A stretch of DNA of 64,000 bases. It comes from Rhizobium sp. CB3090 (GTDB lineage Bacteria > Pseudomonadota > Alphaproteobacteria > Rhizobiales > Rhizobiaceae). Of the stretch, positions 4,874 to 49,749 are shown one piece after another. The stretch covers positions 1,054,001 through 1,118,000 of the forward strand of contig NZ_CP121662.1 in NCBI RefSeq assembly GCF_029714285.1, in the 5' to 3' direction. How positions within the stretch are numbered: position 1 is the first letter of the stretch; each line of letters begins with the position of its first letter. The position numbers and the translations under genes were made by a program. Below the pieces are notes generated by a model. The model was not told the DNA's origin and searched no databases. It saw nothing but the letters and a program-made list of their open reading frames with translations.

Positions 4874-6973
4874 ATGGCTCGCGAATATAAAATCGAAGAC
4901 TACCGCAATTTCGGTATCATGGCGCACATCGACGCCGGCAAGACCACGACGACCGAGCGTATTCTTTATTACACCGGCAAGTCGCACAAGATCGGCGAAG
5001 TCCACGACGGCGCAGCCACCATGGACTGGATGGAGCAGGAGCAGGAGCGTGGCATCACGATCACCTCTGCTGCCACCACGACCTTCTGGAAGGGCCGTGA
5101 CGGCAAGATGCGCCGCTTCAACATCATCGACACCCCCGGCCACGTCGACTTCACCATCGAAGTCGAGCGTTCGCTGCGCGTTCTCGACGGTGCTATCGCG
5201 CTGCTCGACGCCAACGCCGGTGTTGAGCCGCAGACGGAAACCGTCTGGCGTCAAGCTGAGAAGTATCATGTTCCGCGCATGATCTTCTGCAACAAGATGG
5301 ACAAGACCGGTGCCGATTTCTATCGCTCGGTCGAGATGATCAAGAGCCGCCTCGGGGCCACCGCCGTCGTCATGCAGCTCCCGATCGGCGCTGAAAGCGA
5401 TTTCAAGGGCGTCGTCGACCTGATCGAGATGAACGCCCTCATCTGGCGCGACGAGTCGCTCGGCGCCCAGTGGGACGTCGTCGAAATCCCGGAAGACATG
5501 AAGGCCAAGGCTGAAGAATATCGCGAAAAGCTGATCGAGACGGTTGTCGAGATCGACGAAGCTGCGACCGAAGCCTATCTGGAAGGCAACCTGCCCGACA
5601 ACGATCAGATCCGCGCGCTCGTCCGTCGCGGCACCATCGACGTCAAGTTCCATCCGATGTTCTGCGGCACCGCCTTCAAGAACAAGGGCGTTCAGCCGCT
5701 GCTCGACGCTGTGGTCGATTACCTGCCGTCTCCGATCGACATTCCGGCGATCAAGGGCATTGACGTCAAGACGGAAGCTGAAATCCACCGTCACGCTGAC
5801 GATGCCGAGCCGCTCTCCATGCTGGCGTTCAAGATCATGAACGACCCCTTCGTCGGTTCGCTGACGTTTGCCCGCATCTACTCCGGCAAGCTCGAAAAGG
5901 GCGCATCGGTCATGAACACGGTCAAGGACAAGCGCGAGCGCGTCGGCCGTATGCTGCAGATGCACTCCAACTCGCGTGAAGACATCGAAGAAGCCTTCGC
6001 TGGCGACATCGTTGCTCTGGCTGGCCTCAAGGAAACCACCACCGGCGATACGCTCTGCGATCCGCTGAAGCCGGTTATCCTCGAGCGCATGGAATTCCCC
6101 GAGCCGGTCATTCAGATCGCGATCGAGCCGAAGACCAAGGGCGACCAGGAAAAGATGGGCCTCGCGCTCAACCGCCTGGCTGCTGAAGATCCGTCCTTCC
6201 GCGTGAAGACGGACCAGGAATCGGGTCAGACGATCATTGCCGGCATGGGTGAACTTCACCTCGACATCATCGTCGACCGCATGCGTCGTGAATTCAAGGT
6301 CGAAGCAACCGTCGGCGCGCCGCAGGTTGCTTACCGCGAAACCATCACGCGTCAGACCGAGAAGGACTACACCCACAAGAAGCAGTCGGGTGGTACCGGT
6401 CAGTTCGCTCGCGTCAAGATCGTGTTCGAACCGAACCCGGAAGGCGACGATTTCAAGTTCGAGTCCAAGATCGTCGGTGGTGCTGTTCCGAAGGAATACA
6501 TCCCGGGCGTTCAGAAGGGCATCGAAAGCGTTCTGTCTTCGGGCCCGCTGGCTGGCTTCCCGATGCTCGGCGTCAAGGCGACGCTGATCGACGGTGCCTT
6601 CCACGACGTCGACTCGTCGGTTCTGGCCTTCGAAATCGCTGCACGTGCGTGCTTCCGTGAAGCAGCCCGCGAAGCCGGTGCTCAACTCCTCGAGCCGATG
6701 ATGAAGGTCGAAGTCGTGACGCCGGAAGATTACGTCGGCGACGTCATCGGCGACCTGAACTCGCGTCGTGGCCAGATCCAGGGTCAGGAAAGCCGCGGTA
6801 TCGCCGTTGTCATCAACGCGAATGTCCCGCTGGCAAACATGTTCAAATACGTCGACAACCTGCGCTCCATGTCTCAGGGCCGCGCGCAGTACACCATGAC
6901 CTTCGATCATTATTCGCCGGTCCCGTCGAACGTCGCACAGGAAATCCAGGCAAAGTATTCCGGTCAGAAGTGA
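4874..6973 (+). CDS. fusA: Elongation factor G
   Basis: 699 aa, the normal length for EF-G. It is the translational GTPase that drives tRNA-mRNA translocation. The G domain shows [13 protein letters not shown] (P loop), the RGITI switch I region, DTPGHVDF and NKMD. The later domains end in the typical [20 protein letters not shown] region. It is third in the str operon, with a 67-bp gap to tuf. Confidence 0.98.
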
Positions 6974-7040
6974 CCGGAATACCAATTGACCGATAACAAG
7001 AATTGATCCCCTCGGGGACAGGAAAAACGGAGAGCCGAAA

Positions 7041-8216
<1,176 letters not shown>

Positions 8217-33315: not shown

Positions 33316-34764
33316 TTGCGTTTCGAAGCCTTAAACCGCCTCTGGGAGACCGTTCGGGAGACTAGCCATGATTTCCAGGCCTCTACCGACGTGTTTCCTG
33401 TTGTCGATATCGAGAAGCTGAGCACAACGCTCGGCCTGAAGGAGAAGGGCGCGGCTAATGGCGGTCTCAACCGGCCAGCGCAAAGCGCTCAGTCTTTCGA
33501 TGAGACCGAGCAGCGCGTCATCGCTTGGGTGGAGGCGGAAAAGAAAAGCTCTTACCAGGTCCTCGAAGACCAGTTCCAGACTTTCGACAGCCGCTTGCGC
33601 AATCTCGATTTCGAAGGTCAGTTCGGGCTGATACGCCAAGCGAATGCGTCCAGCGTTTCGGATTTCAAGGCGGAGGTCGCGAGCGGCGTGGACGAGCTGC
33701 ACGGCCTGCGCCGTAATCTGAAGACCGCCGAGGACGAGATGGTCGACTTCAAGTCTCGGCACAGGCTGCAGCGCGCAGCAAAGGTTTCCAGCAAGGCTGC
33801 CTGGGGCTTCAAGGTCTCGCTGATCATCTTCCTCATTCTCATAGAGATGGTGATGAACGGCAGCTTCCTTGCCAAGGGGAGCGAGCAGGGCATTGTCGGC
33901 GGCGTCACCGAGGCGGCGGCCTTCGCCTTCCTGAACATCGGCGCGGCGTTGATGTTTTCCTTCTTCTGCGTGCGTTTCCTTGTACACAGGTCGTTCTTCT
34001 TGAAGCTGCTCGGTCTGCTCGGCTTGATCGCCTATGTCGCCGTGGCGCTCGCGATCAATATCGCGCTGGCGCATTACCGCGAAGTGTCGGCGACCATCCT
34101 CTCTGGCGCCGGAACGGAGGTCATGCAGCGGCTGAAGGCTGCGCCGCTGGGTCTGCAGGAGCTGAATTCCTGGATGCTGTTTGGCGTCGGCTTGATGTTC
34201 TCGCTCATCGCCTTCATTGATGGCTGTTACCTGACCGATCCCTATCCGGGGTTCGCCGGCGTGCAGAAACGCCTCGATGCGGCGCGAAGCAATTACATCG
34301 CCCGCAAGCTCGATCTGATCGACGATCTCCGGGATATCCGCGACGAACACAATGGCAAGATCGAAGAGATCATCCGCGATCTCAGCATGCGCCGGCAGGA
34401 GATCGCCGCCATTATCGCTCATCGCGCCAGAACGGCCGGCCTCTTCCTGGAACATCAAAATCATCTCGAGCGCACTGCCAACACGCTCCTGACCATCTAT
34501 CGCGAGGCCAACAGAGGCGCGCGCGCAGAGCCGGAGCCTGCTTATTTCGCATCGTCCTATCGGCTAGAGCGCCTGACGCCGGTTCTGCACACGGACGAGG
34601 AATGGGACGACAAGGTGCTCGGTGAGCGCATTCAGAGCGCTCAGACCGAATTGACTCAGCAGATCATGCGGATCGGTGACGAGTTCGAAAGCGCCATCGA
34701 GAAATATCACAAGCTCGATAATCTTTTCCCGGAGGGCATCATTGGCACGACGCAAGCGGCGTAG
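33316..34764 (+). CDS. Four-helix membrane protein with coiled coils, unknown function
   Basis: 482 aa from a TTG at 33316 with GAGGAAG 5 bp upstream; no ATG lies near. Residues 1-160 are soluble and predicted coiled-coil (LRRNLKTAEDEMVDFKSRHR). Four hydrophobic helices follow at about 164-182, 202-225, 226-252 and 285-305, then a second coiled-coil region (LDLIDDLRDIRDEHNGKIEE) to the end. I do not recognise the family. It is the first of four tightly packed genes ending in a stator-like pair; the next start lies inside its last codons. A cytoplasmic scaffold or sensor role is possible but not shown. Confidence 0.75.
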   Translation: MRFEALNRLWETVRETSHDFQASTDVFPVVDIEKLSTTLGLKEKGAANGGLNRPAQSAQSFDETEQRVIAWVEAEKKSSYQVLEDQFQTFDSRLRNLDFEGQFGLIRQANASSVSDFKAEVASGVDELHGLRRNLKTAEDEMVDFKSRHRLQRAAKVSSKAAWGFKVSLIIFLILIEMVMNGSFLAKGSEQGIVGGVTEAAAFAFLNIGAALMFSFFCVRFLVHRSFFLKLLGLLGLIAYVAVALAINIALAHYREVSATILSGAGTEVMQRLKAAPLGLQELNSWMLFGVGLMFSLIAFIDGCYLTDPYPGFAGVQKRLDAARSNYIARKLDLIDDLRDIRDEHNGKIEEIIRDLSMRRQEIAAIIAHRARTAGLFLEHQNHLERTANTLLTIYREANRGARAEPEPAYFASSYRLERLTPVLHTDEEWDDKVLGERIQSAQTELTQQIMRIGDEFESAIEKYHKLDNLFPEGIIGTTQAA

Positions 34765-35560
34765 CCGAGCCGGCAGTTCGGCCGGCCTTATCATCGCGAC
34801 GGTTTGCCTCGCCGTTCTGTCCCTCGGTATCGTCGGCGCCTATGGTTGGCTGCGCTACAAGGCTAGCGGCAATGTCGCGGTCGACCAGGCCTCGCTCTGC
34901 CCAGTGGACGGCCCGAAAGCGGAAACGGCGATCCTGCTCGATGTCACCGATCCGATCGCGGACACGACGGCGCTTGACCTGCGCAATCAGTTCCAGAAAA
35001 TCGTCTCCGACGTGCCGGTCGGCGGCGCGATCGACATCTACGCGCTGACGGAGAAAGAGGGCGAGCTCATCCAGACCTTCCACGGCTGCAATCCGGGAAG
35101 CGGTGCCAGTGTCGACGAATGGACCAGCAATCCCCGCCTGGCCCAAGCGCGCTGGGAAAAAGGTTTCGCAAAGCCGCTTGCCGATATCGCCGGCAAACTG
35201 AGTGTCGGGGAGGCGGGTAAGCAATCGCCGATCATGGCCGCCATCCAGAAGATCAATCTGGAAGTCTTTGCGAGCGCTGCCGGTGGCATACCGAAACATC
35301 TCTACATCGCCTCCGACATGATCGAACATACCGACGCCTTCTCGAACTATCGCGACGGCGCTTCCTATCAGAAATTCCAGCAGAGCCCGGCGCGTGATAA
35401 ATTCCGGACGTCACTGGATGGTGTCATGATCAAGATCCTCGCCTTTCAAAGGCCGAACATGAAGTTCAGTATGGAGCAGCTTGCAAATTTCTGGGCGCAG
35501 TGGATCAAGAGCAATAATGGCTATTTCGACGGCTTCGTCCGATTGGAGGGGATACGCTGA
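34742..35560 (+). CDS. Single-pass periplasmic protein, vWA-like, unknown function
   Basis: 272 aa from a TTG at 34742, which has GGAGGG 5-6 bp upstream and overlaps the end of the previous gene by 23 bp. A basic N terminus (MARRKRRSRAGSS) precedes one membrane helix (about residues 15-38), so the rest should be periplasmic. The stretch ETAILLDVTDPIADTTALDL followed by alternating strands and helices resembles a von Willebrand A fold, but the metal-site DxSxS is replaced by DVTDP. Its TGA overlaps the ATG of the next gene (ATGA). Family not recognised. Confidence 0.75.
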   Translation: MARRKRRSRAGSSAGLIIATVCLAVLSLGIVGAYGWLRYKASGNVAVDQASLCPVDGPKAETAILLDVTDPIADTTALDLRNQFQKIVSDVPVGGAIDIYALTEKEGELIQTFHGCNPGSGASVDEWTSNPRLAQARWEKGFAKPLADIAGKLSVGEAGKQSPIMAAIQKINLEVFASAAGGIPKHLYIASDMIEHTDAFSNYRDGASYQKFQQSPARDKFRTSLDGVMIKILAFQRPNMKFSMEQLANFWAQWIKSNNGYFDGFVRLEGIR

Positions 35561-36561
35561 TGGCCGATGTTGAAGCGAGGCTGGCCATACGCGACTATGG
35601 GCCGATGGTCCTCTTCGGGCTGGTCACGGTCGGCGGCATGATTTTCATCTGGACGTCCAAGCTTCTTGGTTGGCCGCTGCCGATCGTGACCGGCGTGCCG
35701 CTGCTGCTGATGGCAGTCTATTTCGGGATCTCGGTGGCTTTTGCCGGATTTCGCCTGCACAACGAGCAGGCGGGCGACAATCTCTACTACATGGGATTTC
35801 TGTTCACCCTGTCGAGCCTCGGCGTATCGCTCTACCTCTTTGCCGGCGAGACGTCGATCGAGACGATCGTCCGCAATTTCGGCATCGCCGTCACCTCAAC
35901 CATTGCCGGCGTCACGCTCCGTATTCTCTTCAACCAGATGCGCCGCGATCCGATCGATATCGAGCGCAGCGTCCGCCACGAACTGGCCGAGATGACCCGC
36001 CGTGTGCGCTCGGAACTGGACTCTTCGTCGCGCGAGTTTTCTCACTATCGGCGCGTCAGCAACCAGATGCTGTCCGAGGGGTTCGAGGAAATCGCGCGCC
36101 AGGCCGAGCGCAGTGGCGAGGAGATCCAGAAGATTCTGGAAGTCCTGGCGAAGCAGGCGGTCACGCCGATCAACGAGGCGGCAGCGCAACTGACCGAAAC
36201 GACGTCGCAGCTTTCCGAGATCATTGGGAAATTCGGCACAGCCGTCGAAACCGTCGGTAAAAAGCTTGAGGAAATCCGCTCGCCCGAAGACGTTGTTCGG
36301 GCCGAGCTGGCGCCCGCCATTGCTGCCATCAAGGAAATGGCCGAGGCGCAGTTGCAGCCGTTAAAGAATATCGAGCAGACGCTGAGCCGCATGGCGGACT
36401 TGCCGGGACGATCGTTTTCACCTGAATTCAAGCCGGTCGATTCCCAGGTTGTACCCGTGAAGGATGAGCCGCCCTCCGCGGCGATTACAGCGGTCACGGC
36501 CAACGAAAACGAACCGCCGGCGGATGCGCCAAGGCGTAAGCGACGGTGGCATCTATGGTGA
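35560..36561 (+). CDS. Putative stator-like membrane protein with coiled-coil tail
   Basis: 333 aa, overlapping the previous stop by one base. About four hydrophobic helices lie at 14-32, 40-64, 75-94 and 107-126; the last (FGIAVTSTIAGVTLRILFNQ) resembles the final helix of TolQ/MotA/ZorA-type proteins. A long charged coiled coil follows (about 127-290), then a proline-rich linker and a basic end (PRRKRRWHLW). The next gene encodes an OmpA/MotB-like partner, the usual arrangement for proton-driven stators and the Zorya defence pair ZorAB. The assignment to that superfamily is inference from layout, not clear homology. Confidence 0.65.
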   Translation: MADVEARLAIRDYGPMVLFGLVTVGGMIFIWTSKLLGWPLPIVTGVPLLLMAVYFGISVAFAGFRLHNEQAGDNLYYMGFLFTLSSLGVSLYLFAGETSIETIVRNFGIAVTSTIAGVTLRILFNQMRRDPIDIERSVRHELAEMTRRVRSELDSSSREFSHYRRVSNQMLSEGFEEIARQAERSGEEIQKILEVLAKQAVTPINEAAAQLTETTSQLSEIIGKFGTAVETVGKKLEEIRSPEDVVRAELAPAIAAIKEMAEAQLQPLKNIEQTLSRMADLPGRSFSPEFKPVDSQVVPVKDEPPSAAITAVTANENEPPADAPRRKRRWHLW

Positions 36562-37568
36562 TGCGCGTCTCGGATACTGCGCCAAAGCTGGAGCACAAGG
36601 GCTATAATCGCGGGCTGATCCTCGGCCTGACCATGGCCGAATCCATGCTGCTGCTGGTCTTCTGCCTGCTTCTGGTCGCAGCCGCCATGATTTCCGCGGA
36701 GAGGAACCATCGTTATGAGACCGAGCGGAAACTGAAAGACGCCGAGCAACGGCTTGTGCTGCTGGAAAAGAAACAATCCGAGCAGGCGGCGCGTCTGGTG
36801 CAACTGCAAGCGAAACTGATTTCCGGCGACCTCTCGGCGGCCGACCGGGCGACGCTGGAAAAGGAGTGGCGTGAACTGGTCGAGGCGCGTGAAACTTTGG
36901 ACAGTATGGGCACTGATGGGACGAAGCCGGAGGATCTGCAGGAGCTTGCCAAGATCGCTGACGTGCTGAAGCAACATGGCGTCGATCTCGCCAAGGCGCC
37001 GGACGAGGTGAGCAAGTTGCTGGCGGGACAGGGCGGCGGAAAAGGCGCTCATGATTGGCCGCCGATCATCAATCTCGACGACGCCAAGAAGAACTATTTC
37101 CAGTCGGGCAGCGCCGAATTGACCAAGACCTTTGAGCGCATGCTCGACACGACGATCTCGAATGAGATTGCCAGCAACCTCAGCCTCTATGACGCCGACA
37201 TTGTCGAGGTGATCGGCCACACGGATGAGCAGCGCGTATCGCGGACAAGCTCGAACCTCGACGATACGCTGATTGGGGCCATGGACGGCAAACTGCCGAT
37301 ATCGGCCGTCGAGCCTGCGGACAATGCCGGGCTTGGACTGGCGCGCGCGGTCGCCGTCGCCAATGTCCTCAAGGCCAATCCGAAGCTGAAGAACGTCACC
37401 ATCCTGCCGATGTCGGCCGCCCAATTGATCCTGCCCGGCGATACGATCACAGCAGGGCAGGCGGGCGCCGTGGAATCCCGCCGGCGCATCGAGATCCGGG
37501 TCCGCGGCAGGACCACGCCGGTTGCCGTGATCAATGCCGGCGTTACGGCGTCGACGAATACGCAATAG
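36561..37568 (+). CDS. OmpA/MotB-like peptidoglycan-binding membrane protein
   Basis: 335 aa from the ATG at 36561, chosen for the TGATG overlap with the upstream stop; an ATG at 36555 or a GTG at 36546 would add two to five residues. A single N-terminal membrane helix carries an acidic residue at its start (GLTMAESMLLLVFCLLLVAA; E27), the place of the proton-binding Asp in MotB, TolR and ZorB. A coiled coil follows. The C-terminal OmpA domain has NYFQSGSAEL, VIGHTDEQ, GLGLARAVAVANVL and ESRRRIEIR, with the peptidoglycan-binding Asp and Arg present. Confidence 0.85.
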   Translation: MRVSDTAPKLEHKGYNRGLILGLTMAESMLLLVFCLLLVAAAMISAERNHRYETERKLKDAEQRLVLLEKKQSEQAARLVQLQAKLISGDLSAADRATLEKEWRELVEARETLDSMGTDGTKPEDLQELAKIADVLKQHGVDLAKAPDEVSKLLAGQGGGKGAHDWPPIINLDDAKKNYFQSGSAELTKTFERMLDTTISNEIASNLSLYDADIVEVIGHTDEQRVSRTSSNLDDTLIGAMDGKLPISAVEPADNAGLGLARAVAVANVLKANPKLKNVTILPMSAAQLILPGDTITAGQAGAVESRRRIEIRVRGRTTPVAVINAGVTASTNTQ

Positions 37569-40804: not shown

Positions 40805-41851
40805 GAGCGTTTCCCATTCATGCTGGATCGTATCCACATGAGTTGAAGTAGTTTCGGGCCTCTTGTGGGTCGACCCGCCCAATCAGCTTGCCGATGCGAT
40901 CCCATAGACCGGTTACGGTTCTCTCGGCAGCTTTTCGCAGGAGTGCCTTCAGCTTGGAGAAGGCCTTTTCTATGGGATTGAAGTCCGGGCTGTAGGGCGG
41001 AAGGAACATCATGGTCGCACCTGCCGCTTCGATCATCTCTCGCGCCGCCGGTCGTTTGTGGCTGGATAGATTATCGAGAATGACGACATCACCCGGCTTC
41101 AAGGTTGGAAGCAGGACCTGAGCGACATAGGCTTCGAACCACTCACCGTTGATCGGCCCGTCGATGACAAGCGGTGCCACTATTCCCGTGCTGCGTAGGC
41201 CTGCAACCAGTGTGGTTGTCTTGCGGTGACCATGCGGAAACCCCATTCGCAACCGCTCACCCTTGCGGCATCGTCCATGAGTGCGGGCCATATTGGTTGC
41301 CGTCCAGGTCTCGTCGATGAACACAAGCCGCTCCGGGTCGAGATCGAGTTGGTCCTCGAACCAGGCTTGCCGCTTTTCCAGGATGTCCGGACGGCTCTGC
41401 TCTACCGCATGGCCAGTCTTTTTTTGCGCGTCTGGTTGTGCCGAACGAGAAACCGGTGCAGGGCCGACTTGCTCGCGATGATGCCTTGGGCCGCAAGAGC
41501 GTCACGAAGCTCAAATAGCGTCCCATCCCGGTGCTCTGCAAGCCAAGCCATTATCAGATCGGCATGAGCTTCAATCTTATGGGAACTGCGGTCGCCACCA
41601 AGCGGACCGGGACGAACGTTTCCATGCCGAATTTGCAGGTTACGCCAACGGCTCACGCTGGCTGCGCTCACACCAAAACGCTCGGCTGCCTCCCTATGAG
41701 ATGCTCCGCCATCGACGGCGGCAAGCACACGTATGCGAAGATCAACGGAAAGGGCTTTCGACATATCTGCCGACCTCCATCGGCAGATAGGTTGAATCAG
41801 AATGCAAGTGATTTGAAAAGCAATTCGATTCAATCAGTCAGGGAAGCGCTC
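40805..41851 (-). mobile_element. IS630-family insertion sequence, copy 2 (different subtype)
   Basis: A 1,047-bp element with short imperfect ends, GAGCGTTTCCC at the left and the complement of GAGCGCTTCCC at the right, flanked by TA at 40803-40804 and 41852-41853. Its ends and transposase differ from those of the copy at 2071-3123, so it is another member of the family. It too is inserted in the TA of a stop codon, that of the ImmA-like gene (41851-42459), and its terminal G rebuilds TAG. Confidence 0.88.
40818..41764 (-). CDS. IS630-family transposase, expressed by -1 frameshift
   Basis: The first frame starts at 41764 (MSKALSVDLRIRVLAAVDGG) with a helix-turn-helix region and reads to seven A on the coding strand (plus-strand T7 at 41419-41425). 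The second frame continues from the same site (RKKKTGHAVEQSRPDILEKR) to the DDE catalytic core: FIDETWTATNM, ILDNLSSHK and NPIEKAFSKLK. The slippery site is the same A-AAA-AAG type as in the first copy. Both frames look intact. Confidence 0.85.
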
Positions 41852-42459
41852 TAAAGCTCGAGGGTGTGCTGCGAACTGAGGAGGTCTCGTCTCATTCGAA
41901 TGGCGCGTACCTCTTGCCGTTTCGACATCGTGATATTGCCTTTTGAAATCCGTACCGGAACGCCGGCGAGCGCAGCTAACGCCTCAGGTTGCTGGCGATG
42001 TTCAAACGCGATATGTGGCGGAAGAAGAAAGTGCCTAGCAAACATATCGGCTTGGTCTTCGGTGCTTTCCATCGCGTTCATATTCTTGAACCGTTGCACA
42101 GCGCCATTTGGATCCTTATGCATCTGAACATTCCGATCTCGATGCAAAAGGAAGTGTCCAAGCTCATGGGCGAGAGTCAGGCGCGCTTCTGCATCATCGT
42201 TACAGGCCGCGCGATAAACCGATCGTTTCACCACAATCCGATCCCTGTGAGGTTCCGCGACAGCGTCTTCCTTCATCTCGGCATCGAGGACGATAATGAG
42301 CCTGAAGTTTGGAAACAGTCGAACCAGCTTGAATTCGAGGATCGACACGACGTCGATGCGATCGACATGAGCCACCTCGAATTCAGTCCGATACTTCAAG
42401 GCTTCAATCATCATCTCAGGAGTGGTTAGACCTCTGGATGTGAAGTAGTCCTTTGCCAT
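41851..42459 (-). CDS. ImmA/IrrE family zinc metallopeptidase
   Basis: 202 aa. The zinc protease motif HELGHFLLHRD lies in the middle, followed by EDQADMFARHFLLPP, the third-ligand region of the ImmA/IrrE family. Such proteases cleave a partner XRE repressor to switch on stress or mobile-element genes. The partner is next door: an XRE protein whose gene overlaps the start of this one by 34 bp. The stop codon is shared with an IS630 insertion but the protein sequence is unaffected. Confidence 0.88.
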   Translation of the reverse strand: MAKDYFTSRGLTTPEMMIEALKYRTEFEVAHVDRIDVVSILEFKLVRLFPNFRLIIVLDAEMKEDAVAEPHRDRIVVKRSVYRAACNDDAEARLTLAHELGHFLLHRDRNVQMHKDPNGAVQRFKNMNAMESTEDQADMFARHFLLPPHIAFEHRQQPEALAALAGVPVRISKGNITMSKRQEVRAIRMRRDLLSSQHTLEL

Positions 42460-42794
42460 TTCTCGCGATGCCTCTGTAAATCCACGACATTAGTCGCGCC
42501 GGTTTCATCGACGATGGACGCGATAGTCGCTGTCGCGACCCTTGTTTGTTCTTTCCGCAAGAGCTTTGGGAAAGCATCGATATCGATGCCTAAGAACTCG
42601 CAGAGTTTCTCACGCTCGATTTCTGAGCCAACGTTCTCGCCAGCTTCAAGCTGGCTGATGATATTTTCATCGATGCCAAGCTTCTCGGCCAGCCTACAGA
42701 AGCTCCATTCGCTTTTTTGACGGTTGCGCCGAAGCATGTCACCGAAAATCCGAAGCGCAGCCTTCAGGCTGGCATCCTCTATTTCACTACTCAT
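42426..42794 (-). CDS. XRE-family helix-turn-helix regulator
   Basis: 122 aa. A Cro/CI-type HTH is visible (WSFCRLAEKLGIDENIISQL), within about residues 15-70. It overlaps the ImmA-like protease gene by 34 bp, the usual ImmR/ImmA arrangement in which the protease destroys the repressor. It probably autoregulates from the region around 42800-43000. Confidence 0.85.
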   Translation of the reverse strand: MSSEIEDASLKAALRIFGDMLRRNRQKSEWSFCRLAEKLGIDENIISQLEAGENVGSEIEREKLCEFLGIDIDAFPKLLRKEQTRVATATIASIVDETGATNVVDLQRHREKWQRTTSHPEV

Positions 42795-44429: not shown

Positions 44430-46283
44430 TTATCTGAACCAAGTGTAAGACGTGTCATCTCGCTCGCCTGGAACCGTGATATTCTCAACCTCCTTCAAGG
44501 CGTTTGAAACTTCGGAGCAGAGGTAGAATTCGGGAAATCGGCCGGCCTTTGCAATGACGGCCTTAACGTTTGAAAGACGAAGAGCAAGCTGTAGCCGTTT
44601 CAAGGTGACTTGGTGGCGTCTTACTGCTCCACGCACAGTTGCGTATTTATCATAGAATGCATGCAAATCTTCGGCGACAATGTATCGGATCAGTCGGTTC
44701 TGGCTGTTCTTTGCCATGTAGCTCGTGACGTAGCCGGCGTTGCAGAGCACTTTCAGATTATCGACTCCAATCCGTAGTATTTCGTCAGCTTCCGCCATCG
44801 TTAAATCGACAAGCGCAGCCGTACGGCACAACGACTGGATTTCTTTGGGATCCACTCGGATGGCGTCGAAGCCGACTTTATGGTTGTCCCAGGTGAGATT
44901 CCGCAGCCTCTTGGACTGAAGTAGCAATATGATTTCGGGCATTTGCAGACCACACGCTTTTGCAGCAGCGTTGAGTGGTAGCAGGTCTTCGAAGGACCCG
45001 GTCCTGTCGGGCCGTAGGCCGTCGACTACCGCTTGGAGAGCTTTTCTCGAAAACCTTTCGTTCAGCCCCACCTGACGCATTGCCTTGATGCTTGGAGAGA
45101 ATATCCCTGCTTGCCGGAATTTTGTGAATTGGGCATACGACACACCAACCATCGCCGCAGCCTCGGCTGGGAGAATGGAATCTTCCATGAGCTCGTAAGC
45201 CTTGTAAGCTGCCTCCCTGGACATCGCCCCAGAGTTCGATGAACAAACGTCCATCAAGTTCATGGCTACGGCGAATTTGCGTAGCAGGGTCGGCCTGACG
45301 CCGAACGTCTGCCGCAACTCTTTCTCTGAGAGATACCTTGCCGTATCGCTAGTGCCAAACACGTTGGCAGACTTGCTTAGAGGCAGACTTGCAAACGCAT
45401 ACTCATGCATCGCCTTTTTAACGTCGTCCCATGCCGGATCTTTCTGATGCCACATGATGCTGTAGAACCGGCCGTAGAGCTTGCCTCCGCCAATGACGGA
45501 AACGTAGTTCTTGGCTCTTTCATGAAAGACGTCCATCGCGTCATGTAATCCCGTGACGCCGCGGGAAAGGTAGTTGTACCCCTCCGCACCGGCTTGCCAC
45601 AACCGTTCGTCATCGAGAGATTCTTGATCGGCATCTTTCCCAAACAGGAGGCCGGTGCCAATGATCTGCGCTAAGTAGCCACCACGGTCCAGGCTCATAG
45701 CGTCGAGGATGCTGCCATGCCGACGAATGCCGTTGAGCCGATCGATTGCAAAACGCTCGAAGTCCGTCATCGGTCTTGGTCGGACAGCGCCGAATCCCGG
45801 ATCGATTTCTGCTACCGACAGGTTTTCGATCAGATCGTGGCAGCGTATCGAAGTTAACAAGGACCGTCCAAAATCGTTTAATGCGCAATTGTGATGCTGG
45901 CAGGTTCTGACGAATTGCAGAGGCCAGATCTTGCGCATGTAGCGCCGCGTACCGGGCATGCGTTCTGACGACTTCTCATCCTCGGCAAAACACAATGGGC
46001 AAACTCGCAAACCGGTGCGGACGTAAAACTTCTCCAGTATCGCTTCGCCGCCAACGATCCAATTCTTGCCGTCTTTTCCGATAGAGGCCCGCCGTATCTG
46101 ATCGATCGATATGCGGCTCAGCTCGGCTAATGTCTGTATGGCGACTTCTTTTCCGTTGATGACGTCGGAATACTGAAAGCCCATATCCAGACAGAAATCC
46201 GGCGCGCTCTTTACGTTTGCTGCAGCAAACCTCGAGCAGAAGCTGGTGAGGCTTTCATCTTCAAGCAACGGTACGCGGTACAT
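44430..46283 (-). CDS. tniQ: TniQ-family transposition targeting protein
   Basis: 617 aa from the ATG at 46283 (MYRVPLLEDESLTSFCSRFA). The N-terminal TniQ domain has its zinc-binding residues in VCPLCF (C95, C98) and CQHHNC (C128, H131, C133). The long C-terminal half has several helix-turn-helix-like segments (DLTMAEADEILRIGVDNLKV), as in TnsD-type target-site binders. TniQ/TnsD proteins bridge the chosen target DNA and the TnsC ring. It is last in the transposition operon, 8 bp after the ATPase gene. Confidence 0.88.
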   Translation of the reverse strand: MYRVPLLEDESLTSFCSRFAAANVKSAPDFCLDMGFQYSDVINGKEVAIQTLAELSRISIDQIRRASIGKDGKNWIVGGEAILEKFYVRTGLRVCPLCFAEDEKSSERMPGTRRYMRKIWPLQFVRTCQHHNCALNDFGRSLLTSIRCHDLIENLSVAEIDPGFGAVRPRPMTDFERFAIDRLNGIRRHGSILDAMSLDRGGYLAQIIGTGLLFGKDADQESLDDERLWQAGAEGYNYLSRGVTGLHDAMDVFHERAKNYVSVIGGGKLYGRFYSIMWHQKDPAWDDVKKAMHEYAFASLPLSKSANVFGTSDTARYLSEKELRQTFGVRPTLLRKFAVAMNLMDVCSSNSGAMSREAAYKAYELMEDSILPAEAAAMVGVSYAQFTKFRQAGIFSPSIKAMRQVGLNERFSRKALQAVVDGLRPDRTGSFEDLLPLNAAAKACGLQMPEIILLLQSKRLRNLTWDNHKVGFDAIRVDPKEIQSLCRTAALVDLTMAEADEILRIGVDNLKVLCNAGYVTSYMAKNSQNRLIRYIVAEDLHAFYDKYATVRGAVRRHQVTLKRLQLALRLSNVKAVIAKAGRFPEFYLCSEVSNALKEVENITVPGERDDTSYTWFR

Positions 46284-46290
46284 GGCCTGC

Positions 46291-47370
46291 CTACTCCTCC
46301 GACGACTTCTTCGGACTACGCTTGGTGGCCGGCGCAAACACGCCGGCACGGTTGACGGGGCGAATGATCGTCCTCCACTCAGCGGAGGCCATGACGTTGG
46401 TCTCCAGCTCGTAGTCGCCGTTCACAAGGCGGCGGTAGCCTTCCTCCCAGCTCTCCTGAGTGACCGTGTCCTTCCCGTTCTCCAGCGCGTCTTCGATCGA
46501 GTGGTATATGATTTTCATCACCAATCCCCACCTGTAATGCCCGCCGTACATCAGCCGCTCGATGAAGTCCGGCTCGACTTCGGGAGAAAGCTTGAGACCC
46601 GCACGCTGTTCGACGAGTTCGATGATGATCGCTGCCAGGTATTCGCCGTCATTCTCGAGCGTCATGTTCAAGAGGGCGAAATCATCGACACGCCGTAGCA
46701 ACTGATCCTTGGGGTCGCGCAAGACGACTTCCTTGATTTCGGGGAGTCCGACCAAGACTACGAAGATCGGCCATGTCGGATGCTGAAGCATATTCTTGAT
46801 CGTGTCCGCGATGTGAGATGGACCCTTGTATTGCGGCGACTCCAAGACGTGTTGAAAGTCGTCGATGATGACGACCCTCGTTCCCCGCCGCCTGAGATAT
46901 CGCCGAACGTCCTGAACCATCCCCTCTGTGCTTTTTCTTCGGATCACTTCGTAGTTCATTGCGCTGAGAAGCGCTTCGGCCAGATCCGGGACCGATGCCT
47001 TCGACGGCGCCTTGATATACAGAGCCGGGTAGTAAAAATTGCCATAGCCGTCCGGGACGGGCTGAAATGCCTCCTCGTCCTTCAAGACCTGCTCGATGAG
47101 GGCCGACTTTCCCATCCCGGTTTCGGCATGGATGGTCACCGCGAACGTTTCCGGGTCGAACTGTGAGACCGCCCTTTGCATCCGTTTGAGGGGCACGTCG
47201 ATCCACTTGTCGTTGGGGGTCGAGTAGTAAGCCAACTTGACCGAATGCATGATAGCGGCCGCCTTCCGCTGCATCGGAGTAAGCGCTTGAGACATCGCGT
47301 CGGCGACGGCGATGGCACCAGGATCGCCCGCGCTCGCCATTGGTGGCTTGTCAGTCTTGGAGATGGTCAT
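46291..47370 (-). CDS. tniB: TniB/TnsC-family AAA+ ATPase
   Basis: 359 aa. Walker A is AETGMGKSA (82-90) and Walker B VVIIDDF (166-172), with a sensor region VVLVGLPEIKEVV. In Tn7-like elements this ATPase polymerises on target DNA and activates the transposase once TniQ has marked a site. It is 3 bp from the transposase gene, so the two are co-translated. Confidence 0.9.
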   Translation of the reverse strand: MTISKTDKPPMASAGDPGAIAVADAMSQALTPMQRKAAAIMHSVKLAYYSTPNDKWIDVPLKRMQRAVSQFDPETFAVTIHAETGMGKSALIEQVLKDEEAFQPVPDGYGNFYYPALYIKAPSKASVPDLAEALLSAMNYEVIRRKSTEGMVQDVRRYLRRRGTRVVIIDDFQHVLESPQYKGPSHIADTIKNMLQHPTWPIFVVLVGLPEIKEVVLRDPKDQLLRRVDDFALLNMTLENDGEYLAAIIIELVEQRAGLKLSPEVEPDFIERLMYGGHYRWGLVMKIIYHSIEDALENGKDTVTQESWEEGYRRLVNGDYELETNVMASAEWRTIIRPVNRAGVFAPATKRSPKKSSEE

Positions 47371-47373
47371 GTT

Positions 47374-49749
47374 TTACTCGTCGTCTTTCCAGTCTGATTT
47401 GAAGATCGGGGGGCGCCCTGCCTTTCGAGGAGGCGCCATCGGCTCTGTAGCCGCCTGGAAACGTGTTCCCCGCATGAGGTCGGTCACCTGCACCTTGCGC
47501 GGCGGAGGTTCGTCCTTCTTTTTGCGAGGCTTCTTGTCCTTGACGGCGGGCGGCGTCGACATTGGCTCCGGGACGCCGTCCTCAGCTCGACGTGAAGCGA
47601 ATTCGTCCGGGTTGAACGTTCCTTTCGAGGGACCGATCACGGACCGCGCATCGCGGGCGTCTTCCTCGGCGCCCGCTTTCGCGTCAGAGCCGTTGTCCGG
47701 CTCGTATTCATCCTTAATATCTTCGTCGGGAAGGTTTTCGACGAGGAACAGTTGGGGGTCTGGATCGTAGTCCGGCGTCAGACGGTTGCCGGCCACATAT
47801 CCGTTGAACACCTGCTTCTCGAAGTTATCGTAGTCGTCCTTCGTGACGATGTGCGAAGCGACGCTGTGCTTGTCTTCAGAGAACTTTGCGGTGCTCATAA
47901 CCTGTCGGAGCGCCGCTCCGATGACCTTCATGTCCTGGATGTCGTGCTGGGAGTACGAAGCGTCCATAAGCCGTTTTGTCGTGACCCACTCGATCGCGGA
48001 TACGCCGTCGAAACCTGGGATCGCCGCCTTCACCCAAAAGAAGCCGTCGTCGGCGACAGTCCGGAACCCCAAAAGGCCGAGGTTGTAGGGGTTGGCCTTG
48101 ATGATCACTTCCTTGTTCGTGTAATGCGCGAAAAGGGCCTGCACTTCGGTGCTGTAGTACGGGATCCCCAGGCAGACGATGCCGGATCTCGAAATCGTGC
48201 GAGTCCCGGCCTTCATGCCGAAGATCAGTCCTTCCTTTTCAGGGTCGGTAAGCGTCAGCACGGGGTGACGGTTCGTCATCGTAGCCCAGGCATCGATAGG
48301 CTTCTGGCCATCGAGGCCCTTGTGTTTGGTGAGATGGTAACAATCGACGATAAGTCGAACGAGGCACCGAGCAAGCTCCTCGAAATCCATCGAAGCGTTT
48401 GCTTCGGATTCATAAGCACCACGGACGATGGGGTTGGAAAACGTTTGCCCGGTAAAAAGTCGAAGCCAGCGTTTGCCGGTCCTGAAAAACCGCTCGATGC
48501 GGCCGCGCAGGCGGGGCGTCCCCAACGGGGGCATGAGATGACTGCCGCAAAGCGCGAGGACGGTGTCCTGGAACTCCTCGTCGAGGTACGCACCGCCGTG
48601 GTCCGTCGCAACCTCTTCGGGAATACCATGCTGGATCCAGTCGGTCTCGGTGCCGGCCGCCCTGGCGAAGTTGTCTTTCGGCATGACCGCCATGTGCAGC
48701 GTGGCGACGCCGGACCTCCCGTTCGGGTTGGAGTCCAGGAGCCGCAGCGCAAGAATTGATCGAGTCCCGCAATCGATAGCGACCGAAGCCCAGAAACGAT
48801 CTTTCAGAGTTTCAATCTGCTCCTGATATCTCGGGCTTATGACATTCCACAGTCGCGTCTTCTTCAACAGCGTTATGATGTCGAGCTTGTCTTCGTCCAT
48901 CTCGATGCGCTCGAGAGGTCGGTACTTTCGGTTGGCGGATTTCGAGAGCTCGTTCTTGTCCCTTGCCGTCTCCTCGCCAAGCCGTCCCAGGTCGAGTAGC
49001 ATGCGCTTCTGCTCGGCAACACGCCGATAGAAGGTCCGGATGTTCTTAGGGAGAGGCAGGGGGTCGGCGCTGACTTCGTTCTCTGCATTGAGAAGCTGCC
49101 ATTGCAGGGCGATGTCGGGCTGCTTGGAAGACGCGAGCTTCCTGGCCTCGGCGTCCAGCAACTTGTTCACCCGCGGATCAAGTTTGCGCTTTGGCGGCTT
49201 CTCGTCGCCGGGATGCCCTCCATACATTAGGCAAAACGGGCTTCGGTTCCCTTCTTCAAACCTATCGAGGAGCCGCATGAAGTGGCGCGGGGTGCACATG
49301 TGATGCGTCTCGACGACAATCTTCTTCTGCCCGCCGCGCGGCGTCGGCATGCACCGTTCGAAGTCTTCGGCATACTCTTCGTAAAACTCCAATATGCTGT
49401 CATCGGACCGGGATCGAAGTCCGACTGCCTGTTCGTCAAGAAACCTAGTGAGCATTCTGGCGCGATAATTGATGTGCGGCGGGATGATCGCCGGATCGAC
49501 CATTTTTCGCTTTCGCTCGAGAGCTGCTTCCTCGGTATAGTGGTCTCTTTTGATAACGATCGCGCGGAGACGGATGCGCCGCGCGATTTCTGCATAGGAA
49601 TGAAACTCGACAGACCCTTCGCCGCCGATCTCCGTGAAGAAGTAGCCATGCTCCTTGGGAACGGGCTTAACGCGAAAGGCGGCGCCCTTCATCTCAACCC
49701 GATCGAAGATCGTGAGACGTGTCGAGGTAAAGGGTTTCATGTCGTCCAT
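47374..49749 (-). CDS. tniA: TnsB/TniA-family DDE transposase
   Basis: 791 aa. The integrase-core (RNase H-like) catalytic residues are D285 (RIEMDEDKLDI), D383 (VATDHGGAYLDEEF) and E419 (RGRIERFFRTG), and the intervening strand SVAIDCGTRSILALRL is typical. The N-terminal part contains helix-turn-helix DNA-binding domains; the C-terminal 100 residues are disordered and basic (KDKKPRKKKDEPPPRKVQVT), the TnsC contact in relatives. It cuts and joins the transposon ends. Its start overlaps the stop of the TnsA-like gene by one base. Confidence 0.92.
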   Translation of the reverse strand: MDDMKPFTSTRLTIFDRVEMKGAAFRVKPVPKEHGYFFTEIGGEGSVEFHSYAEIARRIRLRAIVIKRDHYTEEAALERKRKMVDPAIIPPHINYRARMLTRFLDEQAVGLRSRSDDSILEFYEEYAEDFERCMPTPRGGQKKIVVETHHMCTPRHFMRLLDRFEEGNRSPFCLMYGGHPGDEKPPKRKLDPRVNKLLDAEARKLASSKQPDIALQWQLLNAENEVSADPLPLPKNIRTFYRRVAEQKRMLLDLGRLGEETARDKNELSKSANRKYRPLERIEMDEDKLDIITLLKKTRLWNVISPRYQEQIETLKDRFWASVAIDCGTRSILALRLLDSNPNGRSGVATLHMAVMPKDNFARAAGTETDWIQHGIPEEVATDHGGAYLDEEFQDTVLALCGSHLMPPLGTPRLRGRIERFFRTGKRWLRLFTGQTFSNPIVRGAYESEANASMDFEELARCLVRLIVDCYHLTKHKGLDGQKPIDAWATMTNRHPVLTLTDPEKEGLIFGMKAGTRTISRSGIVCLGIPYYSTEVQALFAHYTNKEVIIKANPYNLGLLGFRTVADDGFFWVKAAIPGFDGVSAIEWVTTKRLMDASYSQHDIQDMKVIGAALRQVMSTAKFSEDKHSVASHIVTKDDYDNFEKQVFNGYVAGNRLTPDYDPDPQLFLVENLPDEDIKDEYEPDNGSDAKAGAEEDARDARSVIGPSKGTFNPDEFASRRAEDGVPEPMSTPPAVKDKKPRKKKDEPPPRKVQVTDLMRGTRFQAATEPMAPPRKAGRPPIFKSDWKDDE

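Follow-up and report, generated by a model that had tools for sequence, protein, structure and literature searches.

A conserved four-gene membrane operon of Rhizobium with a MotB-like subunit and with relatives that are linked or fused to nuclease genes

A 64,000-nucleotide stretch of the genome of Rhizobium sp. CB3090 (contig NZ_CP121662.1, positions 1,054,001 to 1,118,000; hereafter the window) contains a compact operon of four genes for membrane proteins, called g1 to g4 in their order (Table 1). An earlier reading of the same DNA made without database searches (the sequence-only reading) had proposed that g3 and g4 form an ion-driven pair of the MotAB, TolQR or Zorya ZorAB kind, with g1 and g2 as new partners. 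The genes are tightly packed: the two that start with TTG according to the open reading frame calls, g1 and g2, overlap by 23 bp as that reading said, while the ATGA junction that it described is wrong in detail, because g2/g3 and g3/g4 both read TGATG, an overlap of 1 bp. The four-gene operon is real, its genes recur in 85 related loci, and chance is excluded.

Table 1. Positions of the operon genes, of their main features and of a downstream transposon-like element in the window
Feature	Position	Strand	Description	Basis
g1	33316..34764	+	482-aa membrane protein; TTG start; long parts on both sides of hydrophobic region	
Four hydrophobic segments of g1	33814-34233 (residues 167-306)	+		hydropathy
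g2	34742..35560	+	272 aa; TTG start; vWA-fold protein with one membrane pass, presumably in the periplasm	
N-terminal membrane helix of g2	34781..34867 (residues 14-42)	+		hydropathy
g3	35560..36561	+	333 aa; MotA/ZorA-like channel protein with long helical tail	profile comparison
Channel core of g3	35773..35934	+	GDNxYYxGFLFTLSSL and FGIAxxSTIxGxxxR, including T83, S113 and T114	alignment conservation
g4	36561..37568	+	335 aa; MotB/ZorB-like, N-anchored, OmpA-domain protein	Pfam, profile, PADLOC
Glu27 codon in membrane helix of g4	36639..36641	+	where MotB/ZorB have their ion-carrying Asp	by pattern
OmpA-like peptidoglycan-binding domain of g4	37095..37409 (residues 179-283)	+		Pfam
TniQ	44430-46349	-		
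TniB	46291-47370	-		
TnsB-like transposase	47374-49749	-		

These loci were drawn from a scan of genome contigs with one genome per species (84,980 species), which gave 107 relatives of g3; the best 80 were taken and five plasmid loci added. All 85 have tblastn matches to all four genes, and in 83 of them four open reading frames stand in the same order, with the usual length in 81. The exceptions are contig ends (L032, L056), a g2 frame that was not extracted (L062) and short frames (L104). A larger set of 103 loci includes distant ones taken from whole genomes and omits duplicates (L021, L144 and L148, which duplicate L073, L093 and L032); L145, with a full core and an SNase gene upstream, is left out as well, and near-identical loci from different genomes (such as L093-L095, L097, L105) are counted separately there and merged in the clusters used below. 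The complete set is present in 96 of the 103, which upholds g1 and g2 as true partners of g3 and g4; the co-occurrence is not strict, since two of the seven incomplete loci lie at contig ends (L032, L187) and the other five hold g1 and g2 only.

The predicted OmpA domain of the N-anchored protein g4 is found by Pfam (8.1e-07), and hydropathy gives one hydrophobic segment, at residues 28-46. Furthermore, the g4 profile matches PomB/MotB (8bri, 8zyv, 8zyz) at E 5e-6 to 1.9e-5, the best stretches running from profile position 24 or 28 to 266-270, that is, from the transmembrane helix through the OmpA domain; the PADLOC model of ZorB1 matches weakly (8.3e-05). The transmembrane carboxylate is Glu, not the usual Asp, in 90/92 aligned rows and in 30/30 of another set. 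Two g4 homologues, at L185:11563-12573 and L186:11458-12615, have a C-terminal part that looks unlike OmpA by eye, and no Pfam family was found in the L185 protein.

For g3, Pfam, NCBIfam, PADLOC and PHROGs gave matches of the coiled-coil type only, its tail matching coiled-coil families; matches to apolipoprotein, chemotaxis receptors and spike proteins were taken as coiled-coil artefacts, and the NCBIfam model ZorA_1, whose cut-off is 190 bits, scored 17.3 in the tail region. A diversified g3 profile compared by hhalign finds ZorA at 74.6% (E 2.6e-5; reversed control 1.7%), in an alignment that includes the coiled-coil tail. As relatives, ExbB/TolQ and two MotA_ExbB-family proteins of the same genome (L107, L108) were tried and rejected, hhalign giving no match; L108 (C1:2602954) itself has a long C-terminal tail. 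Placement of g3 in an unrelated family, which would have spoken against the proposed pair, was not obtained. Two of the four helices ascribed to g3 are strong hydrophobic segments, while two more polar ones (about residues 80-95 and 107-125) fall below the hydropathy cut-off used. Conservation in the core is nearly complete: T83 in 94/94 sequences, S113 as Ser in 92 and Thr in one of 94, T114 in 92/94 and R121 in 93/94. The likely pairing of g3 and g4 as a motor is supported in that g4 matches PomB/MotB and the g3 profile finds ZorA; the carboxylate, however, departs from the expected one.

Hydropathy recovers the four membrane helices claimed for g1, which is an integral membrane protein and not the cytoplasmic partner that it had been taken for. 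g2 has a single hydrophobic segment near its N-terminus, at residues 14-32, as a single-pass protein should, and the vWA-like stretch recognized earlier has a Rossmann-like vWA fold by fold comparison. The canonical MIDAS motif of vWA domains, DxSxS, was not found in g2; its motif is D67-x-T/S-D70, where 69/77 sequences have Pro at the third position, and the N-terminal helix of the window's g2 has no acidic residue. Neither g1 nor g2 reached the cut-off of any family in Pfam, NCBIfam, PADLOC or PHROGs, and their profiles had no match below E 0.3 among PDB sequences. Among the diverged pairs of g1 and g2, that of L182 lies beside a VirD4-like ATPase gene and that of L189 beside caspase-like (a weak match) and SUMF1-like genes, all identified by eye.

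Relatives outside the window's clade (the R. tropici group) have a recurrent companion. Clustering of flanking genes showed an SNase as the commonest neighbour, at 33 of 52 loci (a set with both duplicates L021 and L073) and always within 2.9 kb, in positions that vary among downstream convergent, upstream co-directional, downstream co-directional and upstream divergent; the separate SNases typically begin with an export-type segment, as judged from N-termini read by eye. SNase was also found by Pfam in the partner protein of L021. There are closer associations. One g4 protein contains OmpA followed by SNase in L181, L183, L188 and L190, with SNase passing the Pfam cut-off in all four and OmpA doing so in L181 and L190 (27.0 against 27.2 bits in L188; 19.1 in L183), and in L140 (28.7 bits for OmpA) and L180 (26.2 bits, just under the cut-off) OmpA is followed by GmrSD_C, a predicted HNH nuclease (PMC4619093, partial text). 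A nuclease is fused or lies within 3 kb in 41 of the 64 full loci outside the clade. When g1 is clustered at 70% identity, a hand count gives a linked nuclease for 25 of the 32 clusters with a complete core. Only 0-4 SNase matches per genome occur in 61 relative genomes (a lower bound, the SNase of L146 being unlisted), so that an SNase beside a given operon should rarely occur by chance.

Six active-site positions, which we take to be those of staphylococcal nuclease, are intact in all 29 SNase sequences examined (four fused ones and one from the window's own genome included; weaker-scoring linked SNases mostly left out). A g1 tree built from 37 chosen rows implies at least 18 changes of arrangement, nine of linkage and at least three of fusion. 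It places the HNH fusions of L140 and L180 in a single supported clade with the SNase fusion of L181, a pattern that an exchangeable effector would produce. No nuclease is linked to the window's own operon. Its genome has one SNase match, far away (C1:1682471), with an intact active site and, by eye, an N-terminal hydrophobic segment; this protein may serve the operon in trans as an effector, or the operon may have none. The second recurrent neighbour is a DUF4236 protein, at 14 of the 52 loci and confirmed by Pfam on two: such genes follow g4, at or overlapping its stop codon, in L084-L086, L088-L090, L092-L095 and L105, and lie nearby in L077, L079 and L083, the L079 protein carrying a C-terminal SH3 domain.

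Neither PADLOC 2.0 nor the literature offered a described match, in line with the earlier statement that no known system was recognizable, and papers that join Zorya with a thermonuclease, or that connect SNase and an OmpA/MotB protein in a defence setting, were not found in a coverage that leaves out most subscription papers and preprints. Members seen with annotations are called hypothetical, OmpA-family or chemotaxis proteins. The family is real, apparently undescribed and closest to Zorya, with which it shares a long-tailed channel protein, a MotB-like partner with an OmpA domain and nuclease effectors, g3 being nearest to ZorA by profile and g4 weakly matching ZorB1. Zorya effectors are cytoplasmic; the nuclease of the relatives is linked to the operon or joined to g4 at its periplasmic end. 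As stated earlier, ZorC, ZorD and ZorE are absent nearby: neither the ten downstream genes nor the four operon proteins matched any of ZorC to ZorG, and none was seen among 81 flanking proteins of relatives within the 25 of 35 families shown. g1 and g2 have no Zorya counterpart, and Glu stands in g4 where MotB, ExbD/TolR and ZorB have Asp. The operon is not classed as Zorya, because the defining gene set and the Asp of that system are not found in it. Zorya function depends on peptidoglycan binding, the ZorA tail and ion flow, and ZorE is a nickase (PMC11890865, partial text).

Other systems share parts of the design. As in MotAB/PomAB, an N-terminal transmembrane helix precedes an OmpA-like domain in g4, aligned throughout with PomB/MotB; the operon differs from them in its vWA and four-helix partners and in the lack of an hhalign match between g3 and L107 or L108, and the annotated neighbours in the window are not flagellar, as had been noted. 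Some TolQ/ExbB-type motors are encoded with a membrane-tethered vWA protein, which acts as a TolA-like transducer or replaces TolR and bears the Asp helix (PMC12204202, partial text); here the vWA protein is distinct from the MotB-like subunit, and g3 has no match to ExbB. SNIPE (DUF4041 and GIY-YIG) is likewise a membrane-linked nuclease that acts on entering DNA, and differs in being a single protein with its nuclease on the cytoplasmic side and no motor (PMC13190303, partial text). Proteins of the PADLOC type PD-Lambda-1 (DUF4041 and T5orf172) lie 1.2 kb from g4 in L022, an SNase-linked locus of the symbiont Sinorhizobium fredii NXT3 (E 5.8e-170), and in L180 at 0.25 kb from g1 (E 1.5e-159). 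From their domains we take them to be SNIPE homologues. Further defence-type neighbours are LmuA in L180, a SIR2-STAND protein in L179 and an OLD-like ATPase in L185, at distances of 2.3, 3.4 and 2.7 kb respectively; no enrichment is claimed, because the ten proteins scanned were picked by eye.

We think it fairly probable, with some reserve, that the four genes encode the core of a Zorya-like envelope machine, not yet described, with an anti-phage role. A so far undescribed defence against virus DNA is possible because alphaproteobacterial relatives carry DNA-cutting enzymes beside the operon or fused to g4. In such a machine, g3 (the channel, probably a pentamer) and g4 (a dimer) would form a 5:2 ion-driven motor in the inner membrane, with Glu27 of g4 facing Ser/Thr residues of g3 and the OmpA domain anchoring the motor to peptidoglycan, and g1 and g2 may serve it as sensing or relaying partners. 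Most lineages beyond the window's clade would deliver a DNA nuclease to the periplasm, as a separate SNase or as SNase or HNH fused to g4. Envelope disturbance, or DNA crossing the periplasm in phage injection and possibly conjugation, might trigger the motor; the nuclease would cut incoming DNA in the periplasm, and host DNA would be spared because it is never there. Placement of the nuclease in the periplasm of relatives stands on firmer ground than a role against phages.

Several observations weigh against this anti-phage machine. No full locus of the window's clade (0/32) has a linked nuclease, the operon occupies one constant chromosomal site in that clade, and 23 of the 64 full loci outside it have no detected linked nuclease (L087 is counted among them, yet another search shows an SNase there). 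The ZorA match is moderate, falling to 4.7% without distant rows, and has the coiled-coil tail as part of the alignment; reversed-profile controls gave 1.7% for ZorA, 4.7% for ExbB and 7.4% for g1. L142, L143, L182, L189 and L191 keep g1 and g2 without g3 and g4. No g3 relatives were found in phage records and no g4 relatives in viral contigs. Most flanking proteins are not defence genes: 24 of the 25 PADLOC families shown matched one protein each among the 81, which were drawn from 150 listed and a few more. No phenotype of the operon is known to us.

A Tol/Ton-like housekeeping machine of the envelope, whose motor pulls or organises the cell wall via g2 and g4 and whose optional nuclease turns over extracellular DNA or matrix, is unlikely but deserves attention. 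It would suit the chromosomal, syntenic and nuclease-free operons of the window's clade, the SH3-domain (6/81) and transglycosylase/penicillin-binding (2/81) proteins among flanking genes, and the vWA proteins described beside TolQ-like motors (PMC12204202, partial text). It fits poorly with the recurring linkage, fusion and exchange of nucleases, with the defence genes beside some distant loci, and with a patchy, often plasmid-borne distribution: 18/61 relative genomes, 16/37 of the genus (own genome included), 13/385 of a class sample, 5/345 in one distant family and 7/299 of a phylum sample, all seven from the window's class. g3 is on 24 plasmid records, of which 11 are typed as conjugative, and together with the VirD4-like ATPase gene seen by eye beside the divergent pair of L182 this could point to a barrier in which a periplasmic nuclease destroys DNA from conjugation or natural uptake and shields resident replicons. 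Such a barrier is quite improbable: type IV secretion systems are generally taken to span the periplasm, and the nearby defence genes are of the phage-defence type, plasmid-exclusion genes not having been searched for. Binding and degradation of external DNA for food or transformation is very improbable. In its favour are the intact active sites of linked SNases and one ComEC-annotated gene, 6 kb downstream in L024; against it, no competence gene was seen adjoining the operon in the annotated L021, L022, L023 and L025, such genes not having been searched for systematically.

The surroundings of the operon complete the description. Its direct neighbours in the window are PanE-like and ABC-F genes, which flank it in 32 of 33 loci of the clade (the remaining one is a short contig), many with an extra gene between PanE and g1; as for an empty site, no ABC-F match lay within 1.5 kb on either side of PanE in 30 PanE loci. 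Downstream lies a Tn7-like element on the minus strand (Table 1), and at 41851-42794 (-) an IrrE-like M78 metallopeptidase with an upstream helix-turn-helix protein, weakly like the RmrA/capP defence models. In L140, a GHKL/Toprim-like protein (5787-8027, -), just under Pfam cut-offs, is encoded directly upstream of the operon.

It is tempting, if slightly more doubtful than not, to see here a new class of immunity, in which a peptidoglycan-anchored, ion-driven motor with Glu in place of Asp carries or commands a periplasmic nuclease, SNase and HNH being exchangeable effectors, and self is told from non-self by compartment only. If this is true, any DNA outside the inner membrane would be cut. 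Zorya shows that a nuclease can be set off by a stator-like motor, and the relatives described here place the nuclease on the opposite side of the membrane, where discrimination by compartment would become directly testable. The natural exchange of Glu for Asp offers a test case for the ion path of 5:2 motors, in a family that is recurrent in rhizobia, their plasmids included.

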